Origin: Lachnospiraceae bacterium P6A3
GTDB lineage: Bacteria; Bacillota; Clostridia; Lachnospirales; Lachnospiraceae
Direction of reading: 5' to 3'
Assembly: GCA_000702085.1 (NCBI GenBank)
Contig: KL370861.1
Span: 746,911 to 810,910, forward strand
DNA: 64,000 bases
The notes beneath the pieces were generated by a model that did not search any database, was not told the DNA's origin, and saw only the letters and a program-made list of their open reading frames with translations. The translations under genes and the position numbers were made by a program. Shown here one piece after another: positions 9,600-29,338 of the stretch (positions are counted from its first letter, which is position 1; the number at the start of each line of letters is the position of its first letter).

Positions 9600-11501
9600 A
9601 TGACGGGAATCAGTGATATATTCTTAAACGGAATAAGACCTGTTACGGATGCTCCTTCTTCCAATGTTTCGGGAGACGGAATATCTTACCTGTCATCGCT
9701 TAAAAACGGAGATACGTTTTCTGCCAAGGTTATGGATGTTTCGGGGGCGGATGTAACTCTCAAACTTCCGTCAGGAGGAACGGTTAATGCCAAACTTTCC
9801 TCGGATATGAGTATCAGCCGGGGACAGACTATATCCTTCGAGGTTAAAAACGGCGGATCCACAGTATCCATTACCCCGCTTTTAACAAATACCTCCCCTG
9901 ATATCAGCGTTTTAAAAGCGCTTAACATGGCCCAGATCCCTGTTTCGGACACATCGGTGAACATGACTTCCGAAATGATGAAAGCAGGTCTTTCCATCGA
10001 CAGATCATCGCTTCTGGGAATGTATGAAAATGTAATGAACAATCCGGAAGCAAATGTTTCGGATATGGTCGATCTTACAAAACTGGGTTTGCCTGTTAAT
10101 CAGGAAAATATCAGTAATATAGAAAGTTACAAGAATCTGTCTTATCAGATTGATTCCGGACTTCAGTCTCTTGCCGAAAAAACAGATCAGGCTCTTCTTG
10201 ATATGGTTAAAGGAGGGGATGTATCAAATGCCGCAAGGCTTATGAGTTCCATAATCGATGCTTCCGCCATACACATGGAAGCAGGAACAACGATCGAAGA
10301 TATTGTCAAAGGTCCCGAAAATCCTCTTCAGTCCGATATTCCGGAGCTGAATATAACTGATGAGATTAAGACTCCGGATTTACCGGAAAAAGACGCTTCT
10401 CACCTTGAAACAAGCAATACGGATACTCTCAAGGATTCGGAAACGGGTGAAAAGAGTGTATCTGAAGGCAGTGATTCAGGTGCTGCCGTTTCTGCAGGGG
10501 AAACGAAAGCGGATGCTGCTTCCAGAGCCCTGGAACTTCTTAAGAATCTCAGTTCCGATAAGATTACTTCCGAAAATGAAGAAAGTTCCAAACCGTTACA
10601 AACCAATAATTCGGGAACGGTTTTAAATCGTGCAGAGGATCAGGCTCAGCCGTCAGTCAGGGATAATGTCACATTAAATGATGATTATGACAAATCCCTT
10701 ACGCTGTATAAGGATTTGAGCGGGGATAAAGATTTTGTTCCTGCCGATCTGAAGGATCTGTTAACGCATTTTTCGGAATTAACCCGGAAGGCTATTGTAA
10801 ACGGAGATATCGACTCGTTAAAAAAACTTGTGGAGTCCGATCCGTTAAGAAAGCTTTCCATGGCCGGCTTGAAAGACAGCTGGAGTATTTCTCCGTCAGA
10901 GGTTGCAGATAAAGAAAAAGTTGAATCACTTTATAAAAGGCTTTCATCCCAGCTAAATATGCTGAAGGAGGGTTTGGCCTCCGCAGGAGCACAAAACACT
11001 CCGGCAATGAATGCGGCAAACAACATGAGCTCCAATATAGATTTTCTTCAGCAGATCAATCAGATGTACGCTTATATTCAGCTTCCCATCAAGCTTTCCG
11101 GCGGTGAATCCGCACACGGGGATCTGTATGTTTTCTCAAACAGGAAAAATATGAGCTCCGATGATTCCGTAGTCACTGCTTTTATGCATCTTGATATGGA
11201 TAATCTGGGTCCTGTCGATGTTTATGTATCTATGGATGTGAATGCGGGCGGAAAGGTTTCCACCGATTTTACCGTAGCTGATGACGATACTTTGGATTTT
11301 CTGGACAAAAATATGCACCTTCTTACCGAGAGACTTCAGAAAAGAGGGTATGATCTTCAGGCATCGATGAAGGTTAAGGGAGAGGAAGAAGGTCCCGAAG
11401 AAAACGCACTTGACAAGGGCGGAGTCAACCTGCTTCTTGTTCATGCGGGAGGAGCCTTTTCGTATAAGGCCGGAATGAGATCATTTGATGTGAGGGCATA
11501 A
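9600..11501 (+). CDS. FliK/YlqG-like protein with a hook-length-control type C-terminal domain
   Basis: 633 residues, serine/aspartate-rich and largely low-complexity in the middle (about 270-350). The last ~130 residues (AYIQLPIKLSGGESAHGDLYVF through VYVSMDVNAGGKVSTDFTV) resemble the C-terminal domain of flagellar hook-length control proteins (Flg_hook), which in FliK touches FlhB to switch export specificity. The following gene encodes an FlhB C-terminal-like protein, matching the Bacillus ylqG-ylqH order after rnhB. There is no signal peptide or membrane segment. Role is inferred; it is not part of a flagellar operon here. The ATG has no obvious SD. Confidence 0.7.
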   Translation: MTGISDIFLNGIRPVTDAPSSNVSGDGISYLSSLKNGDTFSAKVMDVSGADVTLKLPSGGTVNAKLSSDMSISRGQTISFEVKNGGSTVSITPLLTNTSPDISVLKALNMAQIPVSDTSVNMTSEMMKAGLSIDRSSLLGMYENVMNNPEANVSDMVDLTKLGLPVNQENISNIESYKNLSYQIDSGLQSLAEKTDQALLDMVKGGDVSNAARLMSSIIDASAIHMEAGTTIEDIVKGPENPLQSDIPELNITDEIKTPDLPEKDASHLETSNTDTLKDSETGEKSVSEGSDSGAAVSAGETKADAASRALELLKNLSSDKITSENEESSKPLQTNNSGTVLNRAEDQAQPSVRDNVTLNDDYDKSLTLYKDLSGDKDFVPADLKDLLTHFSELTRKAIVNGDIDSLKKLVESDPLRKLSMAGLKDSWSISPSEVADKEKVESLYKRLSSQLNMLKEGLASAGAQNTPAMNAANNMSSNIDFLQQINQMYAYIQLPIKLSGGESAHGDLYVFSNRKNMSSDDSVVTAFMHLDMDNLGPVDVYVSMDVNAGGKVSTDFTVADDDTLDFLDKNMHLLTERLQKRGYDLQASMKVKGEEEGPEENALDKGGVNLLLVHAGGAFSYKAGMRSFDVRA

Positions 11502-11789
11502 ATGGCGGAAGATAAAAAAACAAAAGTTAAAACAGCCGTCGCTCTTGAGTACGATCCTTCCGACGATGCCCCCAGAGTCATAGCTTCGGGAACAGGTAAG
11601 CTGGCCGAGAAGATCATCGAAAAGGCACAGGAGAGCAAGGTTCCCATTCATGAGGACGATAAGCTTGCTCAGACTCTTTCCAAGCTTGAAATCGGTGAAA
11701 TGATACCTCCCGAGCTTTATGAGGTTGTTGCGGAAATACTGATATTTGTTGATTCGATGGACAAGATCAAGAATAAACTCAAAGGATGA
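11502..11789 (+). CDS. FlhB cytoplasmic-domain-like protein (YlqH/FlhX type)
   Basis: 95 residues matching the part of FlhB beyond its autocleavage site: TAVALEYDPSDDAPRVIASG then GKLAEKIIEKAQESKVPIHEDDKLA and a C-terminal IPPELYEVVAEIL. The NPTH cleavage motif itself is absent and there is no membrane part, so it mimics only the cleaved FlhB-CC fragment. Such stand-alone FlhB-like proteins (YlqH in Bacillus, FhlX in some clostridia) can interact with export substrates or with FliK. It follows the FliK-like gene with no gap and overlaps yraN by four bases (ATGA). Confidence 0.82.
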   Translation: MAEDKKTKVKTAVALEYDPSDDAPRVIASGTGKLAEKIIEKAQESKVPIHEDDKLAQTLSKLEIGEMIPPELYEVVAEILIFVDSMDKIKNKLKG

Positions 11790-12145
11790 ATAACAGACAA
11801 ACAGGTTCATATCACGAAGGCATCGCAATTGAATATCTTAAGAATAAAGGTTATAAGATAATTGACAGAAATGTTTTAAATAAATGCGGTGAAATAGATA
11901 TAATATGTTTGTCGGATCAAAATGAACTGGTTTTTGCAGAGGTTAAATACCGAAGCTCAGGGAAAGCCGGAGATCCCCTTGAAGCCGTTGACAGGCGTAA
12001 GATCAGGAAGATATGTAAAGCATCCGCAGCGTATTTAATGTATCATAAGGAATATACGGACTACCGGATCAGATATGATGTGATCGGTGTTTATGAAAAC
12101 AAAGAGATAAAGCACATAGAAAACGCGTTTTATTATGAGGTTTGA
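11786..12145 (+). CDS. YraN/UPF0102 family endonuclease-like protein
   Basis: 119 residues with the PD-(D/E)xK-type core of UPF0102: EYLKNKGYKIIDRN, CGEIDIICLSD, LVFAEVKYRSS and AVDRRKIRKICKASAAYL. The acidic residues E, D and the E-V-K triad suggest a metal-dependent nuclease fold related to Holliday-junction resolvases, but no activity is established for most members. The gene overlaps the previous one (ATGA) and is the usual neighbour of rnhB in Firmicutes. It ends the operon that began at 6842 or reads on into the two-component genes. Confidence 0.9.
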   Translation: MNNRQTGSYHEGIAIEYLKNKGYKIIDRNVLNKCGEIDIICLSDQNELVFAEVKYRSSGKAGDPLEAVDRRKIRKICKASAAYLMYHKEYTDYRIRYDVIGVYENKEIKHIENAFYYEV

Positions 12146-12147
12146 GC

Positions 12148-12843
12148 ATGGCTAATATACTCGTATGTGATGATGACAAAGATATAGTTTCCGCAATAGA
12201 GATATATCTTCTCGAAGACGGGCATATCATATTCAAGGCCTTTGACGGATACCAGGCTCTGGATATTCTTTCCAAGGAAGACATCCAGCTTGTGATTCTC
12301 GATATTATGATGCCCGAAATGAGCGGCATCGAGGTTGCCGAGAAAATCAGGGAAAACAGTGAAGTTCCCATTATTTTCCTGTCCGCCAAGTCCGAAGAAT
12401 CCGACAAGGTTGACGGACTTAATGCCGGTGGAGACGATTATGTTACCAAGCCTTTTTCTCCTGCGGAGCTTACGGCGAGAGTAAGGTCCAATTTAAGACG
12501 TTATACACAGTTCGGCAACAACAACGAACCTGCAAACAATCATATTTATTCTGCCGGAGCTCTTTGCATAAACGATGAAAGCAAGAGCGTTACCGTGGAC
12601 GGCGAACCTGTTAAGCTTACTCCCATCGAATATAATATTCTTTTGCTTCTGCTTAAGAATAAAGGCACTGTTTTTTCAACGGATAAGATTTTCCAGTCCA
12701 TCTGGAACGAAACTCCTATCGCTACAGATAATACAGTTGCTGTGCACATCAGACATATCAGAGAAAAAATTGAGATCAATCCCGGACAGCCCAAGTTTCT
12801 GAAGGTTGTATGGGGTGTCGGTTATAAGATAGAAGATATCTGA
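12148..12843 (+). CDS. OmpR/PhoB-family response regulator
   Basis: 231 residues. The receiver domain (1-~120) has the acidic pair in VCDDDKDI, the phosphoacceptor in LVILDIMMPEMSG, IIFLSAKS and DYVTKPFSPAEL. A winged-helix Trans_reg_C domain follows from about 135 (KLTPIEYNILLLLLKNKG, DNTVAVHIRHIREK, VVWGVGYKIE). It therefore binds DNA when phosphorylated, most likely by the histidine kinase encoded two bases downstream. I start at ATG 12148 behind a GAGG; the TTG two codons earlier overlaps the yraN stop. Target genes are unknown. Confidence 0.93.
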   Translation: MANILVCDDDKDIVSAIEIYLLEDGHIIFKAFDGYQALDILSKEDIQLVILDIMMPEMSGIEVAEKIRENSEVPIIFLSAKSEESDKVDGLNAGGDDYVTKPFSPAELTARVRSNLRRYTQFGNNNEPANNHIYSAGALCINDESKSVTVDGEPVKLTPIEYNILLLLLKNKGTVFSTDKIFQSIWNETPIATDNTVAVHIRHIREKIEINPGQPKFLKVVWGVGYKIEDI

Positions 12844-12845
12844 TC

Positions 12846-15542
12846 ATGAACAGAGTACTTGTCAGAAAAATCTTATTGCATATAAGCGTACATCTGTGCG
12901 CTTTTATGGCATTTATACTGGCTGCCGATATATTGTTCGGCAGTTATGTTTCTGTTGATTATATCGGGGATTCCGAAAAATACATCCTCGATCCTTTTCC
13001 CATGTCCGACGATGAACTGGACCGTATCGTAACGGATATTTTTGCCCATCAGGCAAGCGATATAATGAGATATACCGCCGCCTGCAGGATTCTGAGGGTT
13101 TCCAACGGCATAGAAGTAAACAGGATGGTCGATATATCCGACTATTATACAGGCGCTTCCAAGATCAAGATCAGATATTCGGTTTCAGATCTTATCAATT
13201 TCGGAAGACGCGGAGTTTCTTATACCGAGAGAAATTACAGTATTACCGATTTCGTATACCGTTACGGTGATCCCATGTATGTCCAAAACTTTGATCTGGA
13301 TGAATACGGAAATCTGTACTTTAAAGGATTTGAAAGTGTCAATAAAAACCGTGGTTCGGATTCTTATTCCCCTGAAGGAGATGATCTGATTCTTGGTGAC
13401 GGAGACAAGAAAATCCTTGATGCGATGGCCGAACTCGAACCTGCGGATCTTATGCATCTGATCGTAGAATATTGCATCAGACATTATCCCGATGATGTCA
13501 GCATGACTGTATGGGACGACGGAATGGTATATGTTACCGTTAAAGAACCCAATCTTGAGGGTGACTCCAGGTCCGATATGGATGATGAGGAATTGATCAG
13601 AAACTGGGATTCCTATTTTATCGTCATTGACGAATTGAAAGCCGCTGCGACTCTTTTCTCATCCTGTTATGACATATATCGTGAGGGTCAGACCATTTAC
13701 GATTCGGACAAGATGAATCTCTTTTATCATATAACCACTACGGATTCCCTGGGTATATCTCATGTTTATACCAACGATCAGGAATCCAAGAGGTATGATG
13801 ATACCGAGCTTACGGACCTTTATTCCGGTCATAAGCATTTTCTAATCTGTTACTATGACGATCTTGAGTATTCGACTCTTTCGGATATCAACGAATCCGT
13901 CATCACCGATGTTATCAAAGCATTTCCTACTGTTTATCCCGACAATACATGTGTCTGGATGTATCTTGATGATAATTTTTCCAAAGCGGAAGACATTTAC
14001 TACAACGTCAGCTATAAATTCAATGACGTAAAACAGCTTGCAAGGCTTTATGCGTTATTGATCACAATCTTTGCTCTTTTGTGGCTTCTTTCTTTTTCAT
14101 ATCTTGTATTTATTACCGGAGTTGTGGAAAGAGACGGAAAAGAAGTTTATATACTTTTACCTCAGGACCGCGTGTGGATAGAACTGCTGATCCTTCTGAC
14201 ATATGCGTTCTTTGTCATATTCCGGTATTACACTAAGTATCTTGGCGGTCTTCTGGATGAAAACCTTTCGGAATTTTCATCACTGAGCGACAAGCTTCTT
14301 AAAGACTCGGGAATATCATCTTATGTGATATTCGGTCTTTTCGGATTGTCTGTAAGTATGGCTCTTTCTTTTATCGTCTTTTCCATTGTTCGAAGGATAA
14401 GAGCCGGAGTGCTCGGAGAGTACTCTTTTACCAGGAAAGTAAAACAGCTTTTCGAGTGGTTTGCTTTATCGCTTTCGGGCGGAACCGGTGCTGCCGCTAC
14501 AGTGCTTTTACCTTATGTTTTGTTCCTGGGATCCAATTTCGGAGGAATGTTTCTGATCCTTCACCTGGTTAATTCCAAGATATATGTTTCTGCGATTCTT
14601 GTAGGCGGATTATTACTGTTTTTGGATGTTTCCGTCGGAATTACCATGTTCCTGATCACTGCGGAGAAAAAACAGCTCCTTGACGGCATAGCCAAGATCA
14701 GGGGAGGAGAAACCGATTATAAGATCAATGTAAAGAATCTTCGTGCGGAAAACAGGAATCTTGCTGAGAGTATCAATAATATCGGTGAAGGTATCAAGCA
14801 GGCGGTCGAAGATTCCATCGTAGAGGAACATCTCCGTACGGAGCTTATTACAAACGTTTCCCACGACCTTAAAACTCCCCTTACTTCAATAATCAACTAT
14901 TCCGATCTTCTTAAGAGGGATAACCTTACCGAAGATCAGAAAAAGGAATACCTTAAGGTAATTACCGATAAATCAATCAAGCTTAAAAAGCTCCTTGAGG
15001 ATCTCCTTGAGGCATCGAAGCTTTCTTCCGGTAAGATCGAGATAATCAAGGCCAGAACCAATCTGACCGAGCTGATTAATCAGGCACTCGGAGAGTATGA
15101 GGGCAGATTCAAGGAGAAAAATCTTGATGTTGTGACCAATGTATTTCCCAGAGTCCTTGTTTTTGCCGATGCCGCATGTATGTGGAGGGTTCTTGATAAC
15201 CTTTTCGAAAATATCTGCAAATATGCCATGAGCGGAACAAGAGTTTATTTTGAGCTCATTGCATTTAACGGAGAGGTTGAGATCAAGGTTAAGAATGTCT
15301 CCAGGGCAAAACCCGAATTCCAGGGATACGAGCTTACCGAGAGATTCATAAGAGGTGACCAGAGCAGGTCCGGTGAAGGCTCGGGTCTCGGACTTTTCAT
15401 CGCCAAGAGCCTTATAGAGGCACATAACGGTAAATTTGAAGTTGTAGTTGACGGCGACCAGTTTACAACCATTATAACCATGAAGGAACTTGGCTCCGAT
15501 ACAACCGACTGGGATTACATTTACGGGGACGATTTGTCGTAA
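12846..15542 (+). CDS. Membrane sensor histidine kinase with a large extracytoplasmic domain
   Basis: 898 residues. An N-terminal transmembrane helix (about 9-28) is followed by a ~370-residue extracytoplasmic region, then a cluster of about five further membrane segments (about 400-600), a HAMP-like linker, HisKA with the phospho-histidine in NVSHDLKTPLTS (H673), and HATPase_c with N box NLFENICKYA and G2 box GEGSGLGLFIAKS. It pairs with the OmpR-type regulator just upstream. The sensing domain shows no motif I recognise. The promoter of the next gene overlaps its 3' end. The kinase assignment is certain; the signal is unknown. Confidence 0.92.
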   Translation: MNRVLVRKILLHISVHLCAFMAFILAADILFGSYVSVDYIGDSEKYILDPFPMSDDELDRIVTDIFAHQASDIMRYTAACRILRVSNGIEVNRMVDISDYYTGASKIKIRYSVSDLINFGRRGVSYTERNYSITDFVYRYGDPMYVQNFDLDEYGNLYFKGFESVNKNRGSDSYSPEGDDLILGDGDKKILDAMAELEPADLMHLIVEYCIRHYPDDVSMTVWDDGMVYVTVKEPNLEGDSRSDMDDEELIRNWDSYFIVIDELKAAATLFSSCYDIYREGQTIYDSDKMNLFYHITTTDSLGISHVYTNDQESKRYDDTELTDLYSGHKHFLICYYDDLEYSTLSDINESVITDVIKAFPTVYPDNTCVWMYLDDNFSKAEDIYYNVSYKFNDVKQLARLYALLITIFALLWLLSFSYLVFITGVVERDGKEVYILLPQDRVWIELLILLTYAFFVIFRYYTKYLGGLLDENLSEFSSLSDKLLKDSGISSYVIFGLFGLSVSMALSFIVFSIVRRIRAGVLGEYSFTRKVKQLFEWFALSLSGGTGAAATVLLPYVLFLGSNFGGMFLILHLVNSKIYVSAILVGGLLLFLDVSVGITMFLITAEKKQLLDGIAKIRGGETDYKINVKNLRAENRNLAESINNIGEGIKQAVEDSIVEEHLRTELITNVSHDLKTPLTSIINYSDLLKRDNLTEDQKKEYLKVITDKSIKLKKLLEDLLEASKLSSGKIEIIKARTNLTELINQALGEYEGRFKEKNLDVVTNVFPRVLVFADAACMWRVLDNLFENICKYAMSGTRVYFELIAFNGEVEIKVKNVSRAKPEFQGYELTERFIRGDQSRSGEGSGLGLFIAKSLIEAHNGKFEVVVDGDQFTTIITMKELGSDTTDWDYIYGDDLS

Positions 15543-20168: not shown

Positions 20169-21173
20169 ATGGCAAAGATTACTGTTCTTGGCGGTGGTAC
20201 CTGGGCAATCGGACTTACTATTCAGCTTGCGACTGCAGGTCATGATGTGACCGTATGGTCCGCTCTGGAATCCGAGATTGATATGCTTCGGAGCACCCAT
20301 GCACATGTTAATCTTCCGGGAGCAACCATTCCCGATTCCGTCAAATATACTCTCGATGACAAAGAAGCCGTTACGGACAGAGATATTCTTGTAATGGCTG
20401 TCGCAAGTTCCTTTACCAGAAAAACCGCGAAAAGACTTGCTCCTTACATAAAGGAGGGGCAGATAATAGTTGATGTGGCCAAGGGAATCGAAGAGGGAAC
20501 TCTTAAAACTCTTTCCGAACAGATTAATGATGAGATACCCTCGGCTAAGGTAGTGGCTTTATCGGGCCCTACGCATGCAGAAGAAGTCAGCAGGTATATG
20601 CCGACCACAATTGTTGCGTCATCTCCCGATAAAGAAGTTGCCATGTATATCCAGGATGTATTTATGACGGATACCTTAAGAGTTTATACCAGCTCCGATA
20701 TCAAAGGCGTTGAGCTTGGCGGATCTCTTAAGAATGTTGTTGCACTTGCCGCAGGCATTGCAGACGGTCTGGGCTACGGAGATAATGCAAAAGCCGCACT
20801 TATAACCAGAGGAATTGCGGAGATCTCAAGACTCGGCGTGAAAATGGGATGCAGACCGGAGACTTTCAGCGGCCTTACCGGAATGGGAGATCTTATAGTA
20901 ACATGTGCCAGCATGCATTCCAGAAACAGAAGATGCGGCATTCTTCTGGGACAGGGTAAGAGCCTTGAAGAAGCTCAAAAAGAAGTCGGAATGGTTGTCG
21001 AAGGAATATATTCCGCAAAAGCAGCAATTGAACTCGGTAAAAAATACGATGTTTCACTTCCCATCATCGAGCAGGTTAATCTGATCCTGTTTGAAGGTAA
21101 AGACGCAGGTACAGCCGTTAAGGAATTAATGCTTAGGGAAAAGAAGGATGAAGTATCCGATACTCAGTGGTGA
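20169..21173 (+). CDS. gpsA: NAD(P)H-dependent glycerol-3-phosphate dehydrogenase
   Basis: 334 residues. Reduces dihydroxyacetone phosphate to sn-glycerol 3-phosphate for PlsY. N-terminal Rossmann motif VLGGGTWAIGLTIQL, SGPTHAEEV, and the catalytic lysine region ELGGSLKNVVALAAGI with GYGDNAKAALITRG. GAGG SD seven bases ahead. The 3' end overlaps by 26 bases the start of an unrelated signalling gene, so the downstream module is translationally tied to this housekeeping gene. Confidence 0.96.
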   Translation: MAKITVLGGGTWAIGLTIQLATAGHDVTVWSALESEIDMLRSTHAHVNLPGATIPDSVKYTLDDKEAVTDRDILVMAVASSFTRKTAKRLAPYIKEGQIIVDVAKGIEEGTLKTLSEQINDEIPSAKVVALSGPTHAEEVSRYMPTTIVASSPDKEVAMYIQDVFMTDTLRVYTSSDIKGVELGGSLKNVVALAAGIADGLGYGDNAKAALITRGIAEISRLGVKMGCRPETFSGLTGMGDLIVTCASMHSRNRRCGILLGQGKSLEEAQKEVGMVVEGIYSAKAAIELGKKYDVSLPIIEQVNLILFEGKDAGTAVKELMLREKKDEVSDTQW

Positions 21174-22614
21174 TATTTCCGTATACATTATCATACTGTC
21201 GGCCTTTTTGCTGATTGCGATTAACCTTTTGATCGCCTCTTGCTATATTTTTGTCAAATATAAGAATAAATACACGTCCGGTCTGTATAAAGCACGTGAA
21301 GAAGCAAGACTTGCCGTGGAAAATAAAAATCTTGTTCTGTCCAATGTTTCCCGTCTTATAAGGAATCAGATGATTCGTGTTGTCGGAACCAACGAACTTA
21401 TTTTTCGTGAAAGTTCCGACAATATTACCAGAGAAAGAGCTTTACAGATCAGATCCTCACTGGATGATATCCTTGCCCTTATGCAGGGGGTGCAGGATTA
21501 TTCCATGCTTGAGCGTAATCTTATTGATGTGGTATCTGATGAATTTGATCTTGCTTCCCTGATCATTGATTCTGTTACCATGACTGCGCCTCTTTACAGG
21601 TCCAAAGACCTTATTCTCGATCTTTCCGTAGATAAATCACTTCCAAGAAAAATAGTCGGAGATTCTTACAAGCTGAGAAGATGCCTGATATATCTTCTTT
21701 CTTTTGCGTGCAAAAAAAATAACAGGGGTAAAGTTAAACTGTCCATCGATCTTAAGAAAAATGAAGGCTCCAGATGCACAATCGAATTTAATCTTCATAT
21801 CACGGGTCTGGATATAAGTCTTTCCAAGATAGATTACCTGCTTTCCTATGAATCCGCAGTTAATGATATGATTTTTTCACACAGTGATCTTGATCTTCTG
21901 GACGTTTATCTTGCATCCGGATATCTTCGTATACTCGGTACGGAACTTGAGATTACAAATGCAGATAAGGATGTGTTTGATGTTTCCTTTACACTTAAAA
22001 CCAAGAGCGTGGAAGATGAAGTTATCGGAGATATAAGAAATGCATACAGAAACGGCAATCGCCGAAGAAATGATTCCGGTCTGAGATTTAAAGCAGACGG
22101 GGTAAGGATTCTTTTTATCGATGAAAAAGAAGCTTCCGTTAATTATGTTGAGAAAATAATCGGGGATACCGGTATTAAACTCGATTCCGCAAGTACCTTA
22201 TCCGATGCTTCGGCACTTTTATCCCATAATGAATATGACCTTATTATGCTGAATGATGCGCTTAAGACCGATGATGGGATTTTTTACATAGATAAGATAC
22301 GCAGCGGAGAAATTAGTGCCGCCAATTCCCGCATTCCCTGTATTGCGGTTACATCAGATATAAAGCTTTCTATTTCCGAGTCGGTCAGTCATAAAAAATA
22401 CGAATCGTTTTTGCTTAATCCGATTGATCCCGAAACATTGGAGGATACTCTTATAAAGCTTCTTCCGGCAGGCAAGATTGAAGTTGTTTCGGATTATGGT
22501 CTGTTTCCCGGCATCAGAAGCGTAGACGACATACGAAAATATTCCGAGGGTTATGAGGAATTGTATGAAAATGCCGTCAGGATCTATAAACGTTCAAAGG
22601 CGTATAAAGAGTAA
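21148..22614 (+). CDS. Membrane-anchored pseudo-histidine-kinase with degenerate receiver domain
   Basis: 488 residues: transmembrane helix (about 12-36), a HisKA-like helix pair, a HATPase-like region and a C-terminal receiver-like domain (about 325-455). Every catalytic site is altered. The H box, normally SHEIRTPL, reads SRLIRNQM, with Arg at the histidine position (R69). The N box reads IYLLSFACKK, without its asparagine, and no glycine-rich G1 or G2 box is visible. The receiver has Asn at the acceptor site (YDLIMLND, N369) and FLLNPID, with Asn for the usual lysine, though an acidic pair (FIDE) remains. It is therefore expected to bind or scaffold rather than catalyse. The ATG overlaps gpsA by 26 bases. 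The domain reading is confident; the role is inferred. Confidence 0.8.
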   Translation: MKYPILSGDISVYIIILSAFLLIAINLLIASCYIFVKYKNKYTSGLYKAREEARLAVENKNLVLSNVSRLIRNQMIRVVGTNELIFRESSDNITRERALQIRSSLDDILALMQGVQDYSMLERNLIDVVSDEFDLASLIIDSVTMTAPLYRSKDLILDLSVDKSLPRKIVGDSYKLRRCLIYLLSFACKKNNRGKVKLSIDLKKNEGSRCTIEFNLHITGLDISLSKIDYLLSYESAVNDMIFSHSDLDLLDVYLASGYLRILGTELEITNADKDVFDVSFTLKTKSVEDEVIGDIRNAYRNGNRRRNDSGLRFKADGVRILFIDEKEASVNYVEKIIGDTGIKLDSASTLSDASALLSHNEYDLIMLNDALKTDDGIFYIDKIRSGEISAANSRIPCIAVTSDIKLSISESVSHKKYESFLLNPIDPETLEDTLIKLLPAGKIEVVSDYGLFPGIRSVDDIRKYSEGYEELYENAVRIYKRSKAYKE

Positions 22615-22637
22615 TTTGGTTTTGGCAGAGGTTTCTT

Positions 22638-25259
22638 ATGCTCTATCAGCTTGATTACAATATATTTTTTGAACTTGCAGCACTTCCCGTAGATCTGATA
22701 GTGCTTTTCTTTGTGCTGGGAAATTATAAAAACGAGGAAGAGGCGAATTTCAGATTTAAGATTTTTGCTTCCTTTGTTACTGTCGGATGTGTCCTTGATA
22801 TAGTTACCGCCATCCTTTGCAGTATGGATGGTATTCCAAATCTGTTAAGGATGTTCTTCTATACATATGTAAACTTCATGTCTGCATGTGCGGGCATGGC
22901 GTATTATCTGTATATGTGTGCTTTTTCGAAGTTTTATAAGAGAAAAGGCCTTCTTATCATAAGTTACCTTATAAACATCATATATATACTTCTTCTTATC
23001 ATTAATATGTTTTCCGGTATCGCATATTCATATGACGATTCCGGTGATGCGGTACACGGCCCCTTATTTGTTCCGGTGGTCTATATGTTTCCTTTGTTCT
23101 ATGTTGTACTTGGTACCATTCTTGTCTTTCTGCAAAAAAAGAAATTCACCAAAGTACAAAGAACATTTATGCTCATTGGGCTTTCAGTAATATTAGCCAT
23201 ATTCCTCGGGCAGTCGGGCAGAAATGAGAGCACTCTCATGATCTATTACATCGGATCCATAGGTATGCTCATGCTGTTCCTTACACTGGAAACCCCGGAT
23301 CACCTGAGGCTTCTTCAAACGGTTGATGAGCTTGAAGAAGCGAGAACGGGTGAAAAGAATGCCCTCGATAAGATTAAAGAGGTGGATGATTCCAACAGCA
23401 AGCTCCTTGTTCATCTGTCCCATGAGATGAAAACTCCGGTAAATGCAATTTTGGGATACAGCGATGCCATTATGAAGGCTGATGTTCCCGATGAAGTAAG
23501 GGAAAATGCAACGAATGTATTTAAGGGGGCCAAAAGACTTAACCAGTTCATGAATGAGCTGACGGATTATGCTTCGGACAGAAACAGACTTTCCGAGACT
23601 ATGATGCCGTATTATGCCGAATATGATAAAGGCGGAAAAGACAGATTTGATGACTTTGAACAATCCGATCTAAAGGCGCTGGAAAGAAGTGCTCATGAGA
23701 GCAGAAGATATAATTTCCGGCGTGATTCCGCACAATATAAGATACTTTGTGTTGATGATAACGAATTGAATCTTGACCTTCTTGTCAGGATAGTTTCATC
23801 ATTCGGTTTTTCCGTTGATTCAGCCGTAAACGGAGAAGAAGCCATTGCTCTTGTCAGGAAAAATACATACGATTTGATTTTTATGGATCATATGATGCCT
23901 GTAACAGACGGAGTTGAGGCTATGCATATCATGAGAGACGAAGGTCTCTGTGATCTTACCCCTATAATTGTCGTCACAGCAAATGCTGTCAGGGGAGAAA
24001 AAGAAAAATATCTGAAAGAAGGCTTTGATTCCTATATTCCAAAACCGTTCTCTAACGGTTCTATTTTGCGAGTGATCGGAAAATTCCTTCCTATCGCAAA
24101 TATGGACACCCTTGTTAAGGTTAATGACAAAGCCGGCATTTCAAGATTTATGCTTGCTTCCACGTTTTCCAGACCTCTTTTGTGCCCGCTGGCCAGATTT
24201 TTGATTTCGGGTTCGGATTCTGATAATATTAACAGAATTGCCAGATTATTTTCGACTACTACGGGCAAAGTTGATGTTGTATACGATGGTGATGACTTCG
24301 TAAGGTATATTACAGAAAACGAATATGATATCATATTTGTTGAGGACGGCCTTGCCGATTCATCGGGCAGTCTTATCAAAAACTATATTTGGAACTATGT
24401 TGATGTTCCTTCGATTTTGATCACGGATGTTTCCTCCGCACACGACCCTGCGGTAATTTATGAAAGTTATACAGATTACATGGATTACGGTGCGGGAGCG
24501 GAGATTATAGATGCAATTCTTTTGCTCTATCTGCCCAAGAATAAAGTCGGTGTGATAGGCTCTTCCGAAAAGAACGACGATTCTAAGCCTTTACCCTATG
24601 ATACCGAGAATATCGTTCCTGTTTCGGATACCGTTATCCTGAAAACAGATGAAAACGAGGATGCTTTAGCCGGGATTCCGGAAGCTGTCCGGGAGATGGA
24701 TGAAATTGACGCGGATCTCGGATTCAATAATTGCGGATCCGATGAAGGTCTGGTTAGAGCACTTGAGATTTTTGCTTCAAATGCAATGTCAAAAGCGGAT
24801 GAGATAGAATCATTTTACGATTCCGGTGATATTGATGCTTATACTATCCGTGTACATGCCCTTAAAAGTTCCGCAAGGATTATCGGAGCGGTTTCGCTTT
24901 CCGAAAAAGCAGGGCTTCTTGAAGGGGCCGGCAAATCCGGAGATAAATCATATATTGATCTGAATACCGGTGCGCTTTTGGACGATTTCAGAAGTCTTGG
25001 AAGCAAGCTGAAAGCAGTCTTTGAAGATAAAGACAAGGGCGATAAGGAACCCATCGGTGCAGCTAAACTGCAGGATGCTTATAATACCATATATGAGCTT
25101 GCTCAGATGATGGATTATGACAGCCTTGAACTTATATTTGCTTCACTAAAGGAGTATTCTTTCGAAGAAAAAGACCGTCTTAAACTGGAGCGTATTAAGA
25201 GCGCTATGGATGAGCTCAACTGGGACGGTGTATTAAAGGCGGTAAAGGAGTCATTATGA
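22638..25259 (+). CDS. 7TM HisKA-REC-pseudoREC-HPt phosphorelay protein lacking a kinase ATPase domain
   Basis: 873 residues. About seven N-terminal membrane helices (1-~215), a coiled-coil linker, HisKA with an intact H box HLSHEMKTPVNAILG (H262), then only ~40 residues before a canonical receiver (LCVDDNELN, YDLIFMDHMMPVTDG with D417, IPKPFS). No HATPase_c domain fits between them. A second receiver-like domain follows (about 515-635), with Glu at the acceptor site (YDIIFVED, E569). Next comes an HPt domain with H740 in RVHALKSSA, and a helical end. The protein carries three potential phosphate carriers but cannot phosphorylate itself, so a partner kinase is needed. AGAGG SD; ATGA overlap with the next gene. 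Confidence 0.85.
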   Translation: MLYQLDYNIFFELAALPVDLIVLFFVLGNYKNEEEANFRFKIFASFVTVGCVLDIVTAILCSMDGIPNLLRMFFYTYVNFMSACAGMAYYLYMCAFSKFYKRKGLLIISYLINIIYILLLIINMFSGIAYSYDDSGDAVHGPLFVPVVYMFPLFYVVLGTILVFLQKKKFTKVQRTFMLIGLSVILAIFLGQSGRNESTLMIYYIGSIGMLMLFLTLETPDHLRLLQTVDELEEARTGEKNALDKIKEVDDSNSKLLVHLSHEMKTPVNAILGYSDAIMKADVPDEVRENATNVFKGAKRLNQFMNELTDYASDRNRLSETMMPYYAEYDKGGKDRFDDFEQSDLKALERSAHESRRYNFRRDSAQYKILCVDDNELNLDLLVRIVSSFGFSVDSAVNGEEAIALVRKNTYDLIFMDHMMPVTDGVEAMHIMRDEGLCDLTPIIVVTANAVRGEKEKYLKEGFDSYIPKPFSNGSILRVIGKFLPIANMDTLVKVNDKAGISRFMLASTFSRPLLCPLARFLISGSDSDNINRIARLFSTTTGKVDVVYDGDDFVRYITENEYDIIFVEDGLADSSGSLIKNYIWNYVDVPSILITDVSSAHDPAVIYESYTDYMDYGAGAEIIDAILLLYLPKNKVGVIGSSEKNDDSKPLPYDTENIVPVSDTVILKTDENEDALAGIPEAVREMDEIDADLGFNNCGSDEGLVRALEIFASNAMSKADEIESFYDSGDIDAYTIRVHALKSSARIIGAVSLSEKAGLLEGAGKSGDKSYIDLNTGALLDDFRSLGSKLKAVFEDKDKGDKEPIGAAKLQDAYNTIYELAQMMDYDSLELIFASLKEYSFEEKDRLKLERIKSAMDELNWDGVLKAVKESL

Positions 25260-26017
25260 CGGATTCCATACTTATTATCAGTAAAGTAGACAGTTTTATG
25301 GTCAATGCGATCAAGGTAAAACTTGAATCGGCGGGATTTATGTGTTTTTTTGAATCCACCGATTCTCCGACCATTAACAAGAGTATCGACGAAAAGAAAG
25401 TCATTGTTTTATATGTTGACGATTCGATCTTTGAAAAACCGGATCTTCTTATTTATCTGAAAGATAAATGCAACGATGATGATAAGAAGCTTATTCTGAT
25501 AGGTTCTCCGTCGGACTTTAACGGTATTTCCGACTATATATCGGATAATTATCTCGCCGGAAAGCTTGAGAGACCCTTCGATATAAGCGATCTTATCGCA
25601 ATCCTGTTCGGAGTTCAGTCTACGAAAGTGGTTGATGAAGATAAAAAGAGCATACTTATAGTAGACGATGACGCAAGCTACCTGAGAACGGTTCGTGACT
25701 GGCTGAAAGATATTTATAAAGTATATATGGCCAATTCGGGTATTCAGGCTTTGACCTGGCTTGCCAAAAACCATGCGGATCTTATACTTCTGGACTATAT
25801 GATGCCCATAACCACAGGAAAAGAAATCCTCGAGATGCTTCGAAGTGAAGACTTTTCCAAGGATATACCGGTTATTTTCCTTACATGCAAATCCGATAAG
25901 GAAACGGTTAAATCCGTAATGCCTCTTAAACCCGAAGGATATCTTCTGAAGTCCATTAATATGGCGGTACTCAGAAGTGAACTGGAAAAATTTTTTAACG
26001 GAGAAAGTTTGATATGA
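25256..26017 (+). CDS. Tandem receiver-domain protein (degenerate REC + canonical REC)
   Basis: 253 residues. Residues ~3-115 look like a receiver fold but lack the N-terminal acidic pair (ILIISKVD) and have LERPFD at the lysine site. Residues ~127-250 are a canonical receiver: ILIVDDDASYL, the acceptor in LILLDYMMPITTG, VIFLTCKSD and EGYLLKSI. There is no DNA-binding or enzymatic output domain, so it likely passes phosphate or works by protein contact. AAAGGAG SD, start overlapping the phosphorelay gene (ATGA) and stop overlapping the MoxR gene (ATGA), which argues that its partner is the ATPase encoded next. Confidence 0.87.
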   Translation: MTDSILIISKVDSFMVNAIKVKLESAGFMCFFESTDSPTINKSIDEKKVIVLYVDDSIFEKPDLLIYLKDKCNDDDKKLILIGSPSDFNGISDYISDNYLAGKLERPFDISDLIAILFGVQSTKVVDEDKKSILIVDDDASYLRTVRDWLKDIYKVYMANSGIQALTWLAKNHADLILLDYMMPITTGKEILEMLRSEDFSKDIPVIFLTCKSDKETVKSVMPLKPEGYLLKSINMAVLRSELEKFFNGESLI

Positions 26018-26823
26018 GTAAATTCGATGGAACAAAAGGATATGTCGCAAGTCCCGAGCTTATGGACGCCGTAAATATATCCATTGCACTTCAGAAACCT
26101 CTTTTGGTAAAAGGAGAACCCGGTACCGGAAAGACCATGCTTGCCCAGTCCGTTGCCGATGCGCTCGGCAAGAAGCTTATTATCTGGAATATCAAGTCCA
26201 CCACTAAGGCACAGGACGGTTTGTATATGTATGATACGATCCAGAGACTTTATGACGGACAGTTCGGAGAAGGCGGAGTCGATGATATTGCCCACTACAT
26301 CAAACTCGGAAAGCTCGGTGAAGCATTCGAGTCCGATGAGCAGGTGGTTCTTCTTATCGACGAGATAGATAAAGCGGATCTTGAATTTCCCAATGACCTT
26401 CTCTGGGAGCTTGATCAGATGGAGTTTTATATTAACGAGACCAAGAGAACCGTTAAGGCAAAAACAAGGCCTATAGTCATTATTACCTCCAATGCCGAGA
26501 AAGAACTTCCTGATGCTTTCTTAAGAAGATGTATATTCCACTACATCGAGTTCCCCGGAAAAGAACTTATGACCGAGATAGTTAAGGTTCATTTCCCCGA
26601 TGTCGAGGATAATCTTCTTAATGAAGCAATGGATGTTTTCTATCAGATCAGAGATATCAGGGACATCCGTAAGAAACCTTCCACCTCGGAACTTATCGAC
26701 TGGATCAATGCTCTTCAGATCGGGGGCATTCCTTACGGACAGATCAAAGCAAAGCTTCCCTTCATCGGTGTAGTTGTAAAGAAAGATGAAGATATGGAAC
26801 TGGCAACCCATCAGAACTTTTAA
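26014..26823 (+). CDS. MoxR-family AAA+ ATPase
   Basis: 269 residues with Walker A KGEPGTGKTMLAQS (about 29-42), Walker B VVLLIDEIDKAD (about 110-121), sensor 1 IVIITSNAEKELPDAF and the arginine finger region LRRCIFHY. MoxR ATPases generally act with VWA-domain partners to activate or remodel protein complexes; such a partner follows two bases downstream. Translational overlap with the double-receiver gene upstream is unusual for MoxR and links it to the phosphorelay module. A GGAG SD precedes the ATG. The substrate complex is unknown. Confidence 0.92.
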   Translation: MSKFDGTKGYVASPELMDAVNISIALQKPLLVKGEPGTGKTMLAQSVADALGKKLIIWNIKSTTKAQDGLYMYDTIQRLYDGQFGEGGVDDIAHYIKLGKLGEAFESDEQVVLLIDEIDKADLEFPNDLLWELDQMEFYINETKRTVKAKTRPIVIITSNAEKELPDAFLRRCIFHYIEFPGKELMTEIVKVHFPDVEDNLLNEAMDVFYQIRDIRDIRKKPSTSELIDWINALQIGGIPYGQIKAKLPFIGVVVKKDEDMELATHQNF

Positions 26824-26825
26824 TT

Positions 26826-28034
26826 ATGTTTTTGAATTTTTTTGAAAGCTTAAGAAAGCATGGGATCAATGTCACTTTAGGAGAGTGGCTTGATCTTATG
26901 AATGCCTTGGACAGCGGACTTATCGGAGGTTCTCTTACAAGGTTCTATTATGGTGCCAAAATGATACTTGTTAAGAGCGAAACGGATTTTGACAAGTATG
27001 ATGAAGCCTTTGATGAATGTTTTAAAGCTGCTCAAAGTGATCCGGAGGTCGGAGCGGAGATGCTCAGGTGGCTTGATAAGTCGGATATGATGCAGCTTGC
27101 CGAGATGGAAGCCAAGGATCACCTTAACAAGATGGAAGGTGAGGGCATTATTATCGACAAAGAGGATGTTGAACAGAAGTTTAAGCAGCGTCTTAAGGAT
27201 CAGGATTCCGAGCATAACGGAGGATCCTTCTGGATCGGTACCATGGGAAAGACTTCCTTCGGAAATACCGGCGGAAACATCGGCGGTGTAAGAGTGGGCG
27301 GAATGACAGGATATCAGTCTGCGTTTGCGGTAATGGGTGCCAGAAAGTACCGTGACTTCAGAGATGACCGGGTTATGACCAACAGACAGTTCCAGCTTGC
27401 TTTCAGACGTCTCAGACAGTTTTCATCAAGACTTGATACCAATGAGAGAGAACTTGATATAGATAAGACCGTGGACGAAACCTGCAATCAGGGCGGCGTT
27501 CTTAAAATCGAGATGAGAAAACCCAGGAAAAATTCCGTAAAGCTGCTTCTGCTTATGGATTCCGGCGGTACAATGATCCCATATTCATCTCTGCTTAACG
27601 AACTGTTTCAGGCGGTCAATAAGAGCAATCACTACAAGGAAGTAAAGTGTTATTATTTCCATAATTGTATTTATTCCCACGTATATAAGACACCGGAGTG
27701 CGAAAACGGTGACTGGGTAGAGACCAATTGGCTTTTCCGTAACACGGATAAGGACTATAAGGTTATAATAGTCGGTGATGCTGCCATGGCTCCCGAAGAG
27801 TTTTATTCGGATACGGGTAACTACCGCGGTCCCAACGACGGATTAAGCGGAGAAGAATGGCTTAAATCACTCAAAAGACATTACAAGAAGGTTGTATGGC
27901 TCAATCCCAAGATGGCACCCGGAGCCGCTCCTTGGAGAGAGATAGAAACCGTTCTTAAGCAGATGTTTCCCATGTATAAGCTTTCCGTCGGAGGTCTGGA
28001 TAAGGCTATGAGTAAGCTTATGGAGAACAGATAA
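26826..28034 (+). CDS. VWA-domain CoxE-like protein, partner of the MoxR ATPase
   Basis: 402 residues. The C-terminal half is a von Willebrand A fold: LLLLMDSGGTMIPY marks the metal site, followed by CYYFHNCIYSHVY and KVVWLNPKMAPG. The metal motif reads D-S-G-G-T rather than DxSxS; members of this CoxE-like subfamily, as I recall them, often carry D-x-G-G-S, so I treat this as a family trait. The N-terminal half is helical with a glycine-rich stretch (about 135-170). It is two bases after the MoxR gene and ends the five-gene module; tyrS follows with its own promoter-like element. Confidence 0.9.
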   Translation: MFLNFFESLRKHGINVTLGEWLDLMNALDSGLIGGSLTRFYYGAKMILVKSETDFDKYDEAFDECFKAAQSDPEVGAEMLRWLDKSDMMQLAEMEAKDHLNKMEGEGIIIDKEDVEQKFKQRLKDQDSEHNGGSFWIGTMGKTSFGNTGGNIGGVRVGGMTGYQSAFAVMGARKYRDFRDDRVMTNRQFQLAFRRLRQFSSRLDTNERELDIDKTVDETCNQGGVLKIEMRKPRKNSVKLLLLMDSGGTMIPYSSLLNELFQAVNKSNHYKEVKCYYFHNCIYSHVYKTPECENGDWVETNWLFRNTDKDYKVIIVGDAAMAPEEFYSDTGNYRGPNDGLSGEEWLKSLKRHYKKVVWLNPKMAPGAAPWREIETVLKQMFPMYKLSVGGLDKAMSKLMENR

Positions 28035-28081: not shown

Positions 28082-28114
28082 AAGTTATATTTATATAAAA
28101 GGAGATTTTTGAAA

Positions 28115-29338
28115 ATGGGTATTTATGAAGAGCTGCAGGCAAGAGGCCTTATTGCTCAGACTACTGATGAAAAAGAGATCAGGGATCTTGTTAATAACGG
28201 TAAAGCAACTTTTTATATAGGTTTTGACTGCACTGCCGATTCTCTTACGGCAGGCCATTTCATGGCACTTACTCTTATGAAGAGACTTCAGGAGGCAGGT
28301 AACAAGCCCATAGCTCTTATCGGCGGAGGAACCACCATGATAGGCGATCCTTCCGGCAGATCAGATATGAGAAAGATGCTTACAAGAGAAGATATCGATC
28401 ACAATGCCGAGTGCTTTAAGAAGCAGATGGAGAAATTCATCGATTTCGGCGAAGGCAAAGCCATCATGGTAAACAACGCCGACTGGCTTATGAACCTTAA
28501 CTACATTGAGCTCCTTCGTGAGGTCGGTGCATGTTTCTCCGTTAATAACATGCTCAGAGCTGAGTGTTACAAGCAGAGAATGGAAAAAGGTCTTTCATTC
28601 CTGGAGTTTAACTACATGATAATGCAGTCTTACGACTTCTATTACATGTTCCAAAAATACAATTGTAATCTTGAGTTCGGCGGAGACGACCAGTGGAGCA
28701 ACATGCTTGGCGGTACCGAGCTGATCCGCAGAAAACTCGGAAAAGATGCGCATGCAATGACTATCACCCTTCTTACCGATTCCAACGGAAACAAGATGGG
28801 AAAGACCGCCGGAAATGCCGTATGGCTTGATCCCAATAAGACTTCTCCCTTTGATTTCTACCAGTATTGGAGAAATGTCGGAGATGCCGATGTATTTAAG
28901 TGCCTGAGAATGCTCACATTCCTTCCTCTTGAGAAGATCGAAGAGATCGAAAAGTGGGATAATTCAAGGATCAATGATGCCAAGAAGATCCTTGCTCATG
29001 AACTTACCGAACTTGTACACGGTAAGGAAGAAGCAGATAAGGCAGAGGCCGGTTCCGCAGCGCTCTTCGGAGGCGGTGATCTTTCAAATGCCGATATTCC
29101 TACCGTTAAGATCGAAGATGACGATTACAGGGACGGTAAGATCGATATTCTCGGAATCCTTGTTAAAGCAGGTCTTTGCCCAACCAGAAACGAAGCTCGT
29201 CGCGCCGTTGAACAGGGCGGTGTTACCGTAGATGATGAGAAGGTAACGGATATCAAGACTCTTTACAGTGCCGAGGATCTTAAGGACGGAAAGCTGGTAA
29301 GACGCGGCAAAAAAGCATATAAAAAGGTGACTTCATGA
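28115..29338 (+). CDS. tyrS: Tyrosyl-tRNA synthetase
   Basis: 407 residues. Class I synthetase; the HIGH-equivalent is TAGHF after FDCTADSL, the tyrosine pocket region is FLEFNYMIMQSYDFYYM with GGDDQWSNM, and the KMSKS loop reads KMGKT (about residue 228). A C-terminal S4 domain (LVKAGLCPTRNEARRAVEQGG) binds the tRNA. AAAGGAG precedes; ATG 28115 is chosen over the TTG at 28109 because homologues begin MGIYEEL. The stop overlaps punA (ATGA), putting a synthetase in front of nucleoside salvage genes. Confidence 0.96.
   Translation: MGIYEELQARGLIAQTTDEKEIRDLVNNGKATFYIGFDCTADSLTAGHFMALTLMKRLQEAGNKPIALIGGGTTMIGDPSGRSDMRKMLTREDIDHNAECFKKQMEKFIDFGEGKAIMVNNADWLMNLNYIELLREVGACFSVNNMLRAECYKQRMEKGLSFLEFNYMIMQSYDFYYMFQKYNCNLEFGGDDQWSNMLGGTELIRRKLGKDAHAMTITLLTDSNGNKMGKTAGNAVWLDPNKTSPFDFYQYWRNVGDADVFKCLRMLTFLPLEKIEEIEKWDNSRINDAKKILAHELTELVHGKEEADKAEAGSAALFGGGDLSNADIPTVKIEDDDYRDGKIDILGILVKAGLCPTRNEARRAVEQGGVTVDDEKVTDIKTLYSAEDLKDGKLVRRGKKAYKKVTS

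Follow-up and report, generated by a model that had tools for sequence, protein, structure and literature searches.

The window analysed here, a stretch of 64,000 nucleotides in the 2.98 Mb genome of Lachnospiraceae bacterium P6A3 (G000:C2:746911-810910), carries a run of five genes, here called A to E, in which a pseudo-histidine kinase (A), a phosphorelay protein without an ATPase domain (B) and a double-receiver protein (C) stand before an AAA+ ATPase (D) and its VWA partner (E). The original prediction had read the five genes as one module, a phosphorelay without any intact kinase that is fed by a kinase encoded elsewhere and controls a MoxR-VWA chaperone pair. The five open reading frames (ORFs) are real and lie as listed below, neighbouring frames overlapping or nearly touching, and ORFs, Pfam and alignments bear out the domain reading. 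What is new here, as judged from sequence comparisons, is that A-B-C is kin to a cassette with an intact kinase, the kinase having been lost and the phosphosites kept. The kinase-less relay with its conserved phosphate path stands as predicted, whereas its unity with D-E does not. The features, in window coordinates and with the evidence for each, are as follows.

21148..22614, plus strand: A, membrane-anchored pseudo-histidine kinase (ORF, Pfam/NCBIfam, alignment, structure model)
22638..25259, plus strand: B, 7TM-HisKA(H262)-REC(D417)-pseudoREC(E569)-HPt(H740)-C-terminal extension, 7TM being a seven-transmembrane region (ORF, Pfam, alignment)
25256..26017, plus strand: C, double receiver, with D180 in the second (ORF, Pfam, alignment)
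26014..26823, plus strand: D, MoxR/CoxD-type AAA+ ATPase (ORF, Pfam, motifs)
26826..28034, plus strand: E, CoxE-type VWA protein and partner of D (ORF, Pfam, motifs)
20169..21173, plus strand: conserved left neighbour, taken to be gpsA (ORF)
28109..29338, plus strand: right neighbour in many relatives, taken to be tyrS (ORF)

Protein A consists of one transmembrane helix, a degenerate DHp domain, a degenerate HATPase-like domain (about residues 172-283), a degenerate receiver (321-434) and a conserved C-terminal helix. The phospho-histidine and the N, G1 and G2 boxes are gone from all 14 aligned A sequences, and B has no HATPase_c domain, so that the five genes hold no intact kinase, as predicted. 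Pfam and NCBIfam find one receiver in A, and long NCBIfam kinase models align across its middle. A HATPase-like fold, proposed earlier as a check, is there in degenerate form: the structure model keeps the whole kinase fold, RetS-like in two structure comparisons, and what has gone is the catalytic boxes. With a homologous DHp-CA core and lost catalytic motifs, A is a pseudo-histidine kinase. RetS stands at or near the top in both comparisons, and is the only match below 0.001 when the HATPase region alone is searched against the PDB. The HATPase profile of the gene screens is a separate matter and excludes the orthologues of A, which would make it circular for A. Two observations weigh against this likeness: a sequence profile of A scores 7p8e and GacS above RetS, and in the model the DHp hairpin has a predicted local distance difference test score (pLDDT) below 50 at residues 74-89 and 96-106. 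RetS retains its phospho-histidine and combines a 7TM sensor, a DHp-CA core and two receivers; in A the phospho-histidine is gone, the only membrane helix is at the N terminus and the single receiver is degenerate, and its partner B, unlike that of RetS, has no ATPase domain. By membership A is not RetS, and at most it may work like RetS, whose kinase region has been solved in complex with the DHp domain of GacS from Pseudomonas aeruginosa (7n0e). Pseudo-histidine kinases are a recognised class, with HisKA domains that lack the histidine counted at 722 of 76,471 (PMC12632262).

In B, Pfam and NCBIfam recognise HisKA, receiver and Hpt domains and no HATPase_c, and the stretch between HisKA and receiver is too short for a HATPase_c domain in the 15 aligned B sequences. 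Bearing a HisKA phospho-histidine in a protein without HATPase, B may be one half of a split kinase; its candidate partner A is dead in the window, and the counterpart of A is intact in L257, L258, L337 and L339. The phosphosites are intact, as had been read from the sequence: H262, D417 and H740, together with T447 and K469, are invariant in 15/15 B sequences, and D180 of C in 17/17. The second receiver of B has a glutamate at the acceptor place in all 14 sequences that have this receiver; in C it is the first receiver that is degenerate, and missed by Pfam, while the second is intact. A protein of 439 amino acids encoded elsewhere in the same genome (L172:1498-2814, G000:C1:572279) joins a 7TM region like that of B to an HD_5 domain (34% over B 4-253), so that this region is a shared input module.

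Selection on these genes was compared in two subclades of five species and ten pairs each. Median ratios of nonsynonymous to synonymous substitution rates (dN/dS) are 0.14 and 0.09 for A, 0.09 and 0.09 for B, 0.03 and 0.03 for C, 0.013 and 0.015 for D, and 0.011 and 0.014 for E; with dS at about 0.8-1.7, these values are rough. That A-B-C is a decaying, functionless remnant of a kinase cassette would agree with the loss of every tested catalytic residue from A, with dN/dS values in A and B about 6 to 12 times those of D and E, and with the loss of part or all of A-B-C from 2 of the 16 members of the clade described below. All three genes nevertheless stay well below 1 in both subclades, their frames are open in 14 species and the phosphosites are invariant; we disfavour decay as very improbable.

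B may also be something other than a conduit. A and B could be attenuators, B serving as a phosphate sink or phosphatase for the receivers of other kinases and A tuning it. The H-E-x-K-T motif (H262, E263, K265, T266) is kept without an ATPase domain and is invariant in 15/15 B sequences; among 42417 HisKA proteins, 711 lack HATPase and carry the phosphatase motif HE/DxxN/T (PMC3591291); and RetS takes phosphate from GacS, dephosphorylates it and blocks its autophosphorylation (PMC5992135). A pure phosphatase would need neither an invariant HPt histidine nor an invariant receiver aspartate in C, although a sink would, and we consider attenuation improbable.

The origin of A-B-C was sought with an alignment of B, scanned against the genome contigs of 84,980 species; the results concern the best 80 of 586 relatives, of which L257-L274, L284, L304, L314 and L329 were read gene by gene and the rest screened automatically. 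A survey of ATPase-less (CA-less) proteins gave 23 places outside G000 and G116, of which 15 lie within 14 fetched stretches; seven of its 20 genomes (G006, G009, G089, G143, G190, G212 and G252) and a second place in G187 are represented by the survey entry itself. Among the matches listed, four genomes hold a cassette kin to A-B-C (L257, L258, L337 and L339). In L257 and L258, both among the best 80 of 586, this is a four-gene run ending in C. Gene 1 encodes a hybrid kinase with HisKA, HATPase_c and receiver domains (760 and 754 amino acids), and gene 2 a 7TM-HisKA-REC protein without HATPase_c, of 618 amino acids in L257 and 948 in L258 (6001-8847), where REC-HD_5 has been added in the same chain. 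Gene 3 encodes a REC-HPt protein (361 and 351 amino acids, the Hpt of L257 scoring just under the Pfam cut-off) and gene 4 is C (251 and 282 amino acids). In BLAST against L257, A 15-444 matches gene 1 (25%) and C matches gene 4 (39%), while B 2-486 matches gene 2 and B 547-867 matches gene 3 (35% each); since its two halves match genes 2 and 3, B is a fusion of the two. The family genomes G004 (L339) and G135 (L337) have three-gene runs with no adjoining C, and in gene 2 of L337 the 7TM region has been lost and a REC-HD-type sequence gained, with a tail that resembles L258 gene 2 by eye. Further relatives include a lone 7TM-HisKA-REC-HPt protein in G049 (L338) and two HisKA-REC-HPt proteins that begin with a Cache-type region and lack HATPase_c (L304, L293); the other 11 fetched loci with a B-type 7TM region (L340-L350) contain a HATPase domain.

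The catalytic residues are kept in all four gene-1 kinases, the DHp histidine and the receiver aspartate in all four gene-2 proteins, and the receiver aspartate together with the HPt histidine in all four REC-HPt proteins. In a careful kinase-core tree of 26 rows, six A sequences and the four gene-1 kinases split off at 99/97 from 16 kinases, 13 of them from G000, and a quick tree of 40 rows gave the same split with support of 96. Weighing against this placement, A forms a long branch in the trees, and the tree evidence is for that reason good but not perfect. On such evidence the kinase and the gene-3 receiver degenerated in the window clade while the rest was kept, and it is the cassette relatives, not the window, that look like a split kinase. 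In the split kinases of Rhodobacter sphaeroides (CheA3/CheA4) and Synechocystis (Hik36/Hik43), histidine and ATPase reside on separate proteins (PMC3591291, PMC7656254), and split kinases have been proposed among the 1556 of 42417 HisKA proteins that lack HATPase (PMC3591291); in the window, by contrast, the would-be ATPase partner A is dead, and B adds REC and HPt domains. The series runs naturally from intact cassette through kinase-dead relay and trimmed single protein to clean loss, with the kinase dropped while downstream phosphosites stay under selection. In L257 the cassette (10390-15306) ends directly before genes that, from their sequences, we presume to be hrcA-grpE-dnaK-dnaJ.

D was found in all 31 genomes of the genus, and all 31 neighbourhoods were inspected. 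A-B-C lies between gpsA and D, with tight spacing, in 14; E follows D in 12 of these (cut in one) and lies past the contig end in two. One genome (G320, L161) has B alone in the slot, trimmed to a 7TM-HisKA-REC-HPt protein of 623 amino acids without pseudoreceiver or C-terminal extension, and in another of the same clade (G325, L160) the slot is empty and the contig ends inside E. A third, G300 (L181), has an intact Reg_prop hybrid kinase of 1410 amino acids together with C between gpsA and D, the pair lying behind a 313-amino-acid gene on the other strand. The 14 further genomes have no receiver or kinase gene between gpsA and D (a single opposite-strand gene lies there in three of them, and a contig end cuts D in G308); with G325, 15/31 have no signalling gene in the slot. 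In many relatives that lack A-B-C, gpsA immediately precedes D. A quickly computed tree of gpsA, D, E and der joins the A-B-C genomes, G320 and G325 in a clade of 16 (Shimodaira-Hasegawa-like approximate likelihood ratio test, SH-aLRT, 100), with G300 outside it.

Beyond the genus, E matches 59 of 299 family genomes. Of 58 family loci, four were unscored, the gene caller having missed E (L041, L056, L081, L089); gpsA stands directly before D in 16 of the 54 scored, and D was not recognised beside E in three more, so that the absence of any receiver or kinase gene before D holds for 51 loci (0/51). The order sample gave matches in 78 of 392 genomes; of 55 further loci retrieved, 52 were scored (in L204, L224 and L242 the gene caller again missed E), with D not recognised beside E in three. 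No same-strand receiver or kinase gene stands directly before D in the 47 order loci that have D recognised and a gene in front of it; kinase or receiver genes lie near D-E on the other strand in L244 and L252, that of L252 being a kinase gene directly before D. The arrangement of A-B-C before D was not found in either sample outside the genus, and within it is limited to the 14/31 genomes. By the refuting condition that came with it, the five-gene module of the original prediction fails, because the MoxR-VWA pair regularly occurs apart from the signalling genes. A promoter and terminator scan gave no signal: it picked up 14 and 9, where 21.4 and 7.3 were expected. In several family genomes a gene of about 284-297 amino acids, often on the other strand, precedes D (L032, L034, L053, L059, L062 and others), and by a sequence motif it resembles methylenetetrahydrofolate reductase.

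Does the relay act on D-E? It is the adjacency of the genes that makes control of the chaperone pair plausible. In its favour, the slot of one other lineage, G300, holds an intact kinase with C, and a receiver or kinase gene directly follows E in 6/48 family loci: REC-HD_5 and then a hybrid kinase in L042 (by Pfam), with L064 and L065 alike by profile, a lone receiver in L059, a hybrid kinase in L062, and a LytTR regulator 350 bases past E in L073. Against a background of 5/507 this is an excess (p 1e-4). Several observations, however, weigh against control of D-E: the comparison becomes 6/48 against 38/540 (p 0.14) when a conserved upstream regulator/kinase pair is counted; the six cases are not independent; no same-strand receiver or kinase gene follows E in 39 order loci; C paralogues lie against genes of no related kind (uvrB; a symporter/tyrS interval); and G320 and G325, within the clade, keep D without a close C-family protein, at genome completeness of 93% and 83%. 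The kinase and C of G300 might represent a second arrival in the slot, a reading that is not firm: its C groups with another paralogue set (94/76), yet an approximately unbiased test does not reject placing this C in the slot clade (p 0.10).

These observations also bear on the reading in which A-B-C is a relay complete in itself that happens to lie in the gpsA operon, D-E having an independent job and C acting on, for example, cyclic di-GMP (c-di-GMP) enzymes or a hub common to C and its paralogues. Searched with C, 22/31 genus genomes yield 4-9 matches, a count that takes in single-receiver proteins, and paralogues adjoin uvrB, HD-domain proteins and other genes. G325 and G299 lack any C match at 1e-20, and G320 and G315 show matches of a distant, receiver-level kind only, while each of the remaining 27 genomes has two or more; D is kept in 31/31, and in the order sample D-E stands alone. 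Against this reading, the order A-B-C before D is kept, tightly spaced, in 14 species, and C stands behind an intact kinase in the same slot in G300, outside the A-B-C clade; we give this reading a substantial chance, though one clearly short of even. A link between loss of the C family and loss of c-di-GMP enzymes or flagella was considered and dropped: GGDEF and flagellin matches occur in 31/31 genus genomes, G320 and G325 included, and therefore no linked trait was found.

We propose instead that A-B-C is a relay that has lost its own kinase and may act on D-E. As the sequences show, the cassette kinase became the pseudokinase A and genes 2 and 3 fused into B, the gene-3-derived receiver exchanging its acceptor aspartate for glutamate while H262, D417, H740 and D180 stayed fixed. 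One or more hybrid kinases encoded elsewhere would phosphorylate B on H262, or directly on D417 or H740, and phosphate would pass from D417 to H740 and on to D180 of C; A may bind the bare DHp domain of B and gate phosphotransfer or phosphatase action, as RetS does on GacS. In the weakest step, phosphorylated C might dock on the MoxR-VWA pair D-E and alter its chaperone activity; given a working relay, control of D-E by C is about an even call. A donor elsewhere in the genome, as originally supposed, has candidates: G000 encodes at least 18 HATPase-containing hybrid kinases, none of the 13 placed in the tree being of A's own kind, and the five that misfit the A profile standing outside the tree. 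Taken whole, the proposal is one we hold tentatively, at slightly under an even chance. That a membrane protein with a bare DHp domain is gated by a co-evolved, RetS-like pseudokinase, borrows its phosphate from the hybrid kinases of the cell and serves a double receiver that switches the MoxR-VWA machine directly, and not transcription, is unlikely. With few proteins one can ask here if a bare DHp domain receives phosphate in trans or serves there as a phosphatase, and binding of C to D-E would make this a phosphorelay with a MoxR-VWA remodelling machine as its target.

The membrane protein RcsD, of the RcsCDB system, carries the HPt of its relay; its kinase core is dead or missing, and it is not known to have a working HisKA or receiver upstream of the HPt. 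The NCBIfam RcsD model aligns to A (2.6e-13), but B keeps both the HisKA histidine and the receiver aspartate, and C, a double receiver, lacks a DNA-binding domain. In the mostly open-access literature we found no description of a cassette combining an intact kinase, an ATPase-less partner, a REC-HPt protein and a double receiver, nor of a kinase-dead descendant of one, nor of a receiver acting on a MoxR-VWA pair.

D (AAA_5) and E (VWA_CoxE) both score above their Pfam cut-offs; the Walker A motif GEPGTGKT and the Walker B pattern occur in 132/132 D proteins, and a MIDAS-like DSGG[ST]M pattern in 104/132 E proteins. An AAA+ protein with both Walker motifs followed by a CoxE-type VWA protein makes D-E a MoxR-VWA pair of the CoxD-CoxE type, like NorQ-NorD and RavA-ViaA by Pfam and motifs. 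Pairs of this kind remodel or modulate target complexes: NorQD uses a VWA plug to remodel its target (PMC9976466), and RavA-ViaA works on fumarate reductase (PMC10585395). Control by a phosphorelay receiver is described in the abstract of neither. Identity with MadB/MadC of the MADS defence system was rejected, D scoring 119 of 475 bits and E 21.9 of 600 bits, below the NCBIfam cut-offs. A PDB sequence search gave nothing meaningful for E; its matches to D were confined to Midasin and Cdc48/VCP-type AAA proteins.

Some smaller observations concern the surroundings of C paralogues and of E. In G000 itself (L150:7510-10238, G000:C1) a full hybrid kinase precedes a C paralogue that shares 4 bases with uvrB, and in G116 (L197) the same kinase and C are followed by a 656-amino-acid gene to which the search gave no name. 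On the far side of D-E in G300, a hybrid kinase of 1150 amino acids with a DegV domain between receiver and Hpt (L181:3434-6886) adjoins a sodium:alanine symporter and a second C gene. E-like proteins occur in 17 of 72,556 plasmid records, all below 60% identity; in two plasmid neighbourhoods (L199, L200) no two-component gene is annotated directly beside E, an AAA gene adjoins E in L199, L200 has an 'ATP-binding protein', and a diguanylate cyclase lies some genes from E in both.

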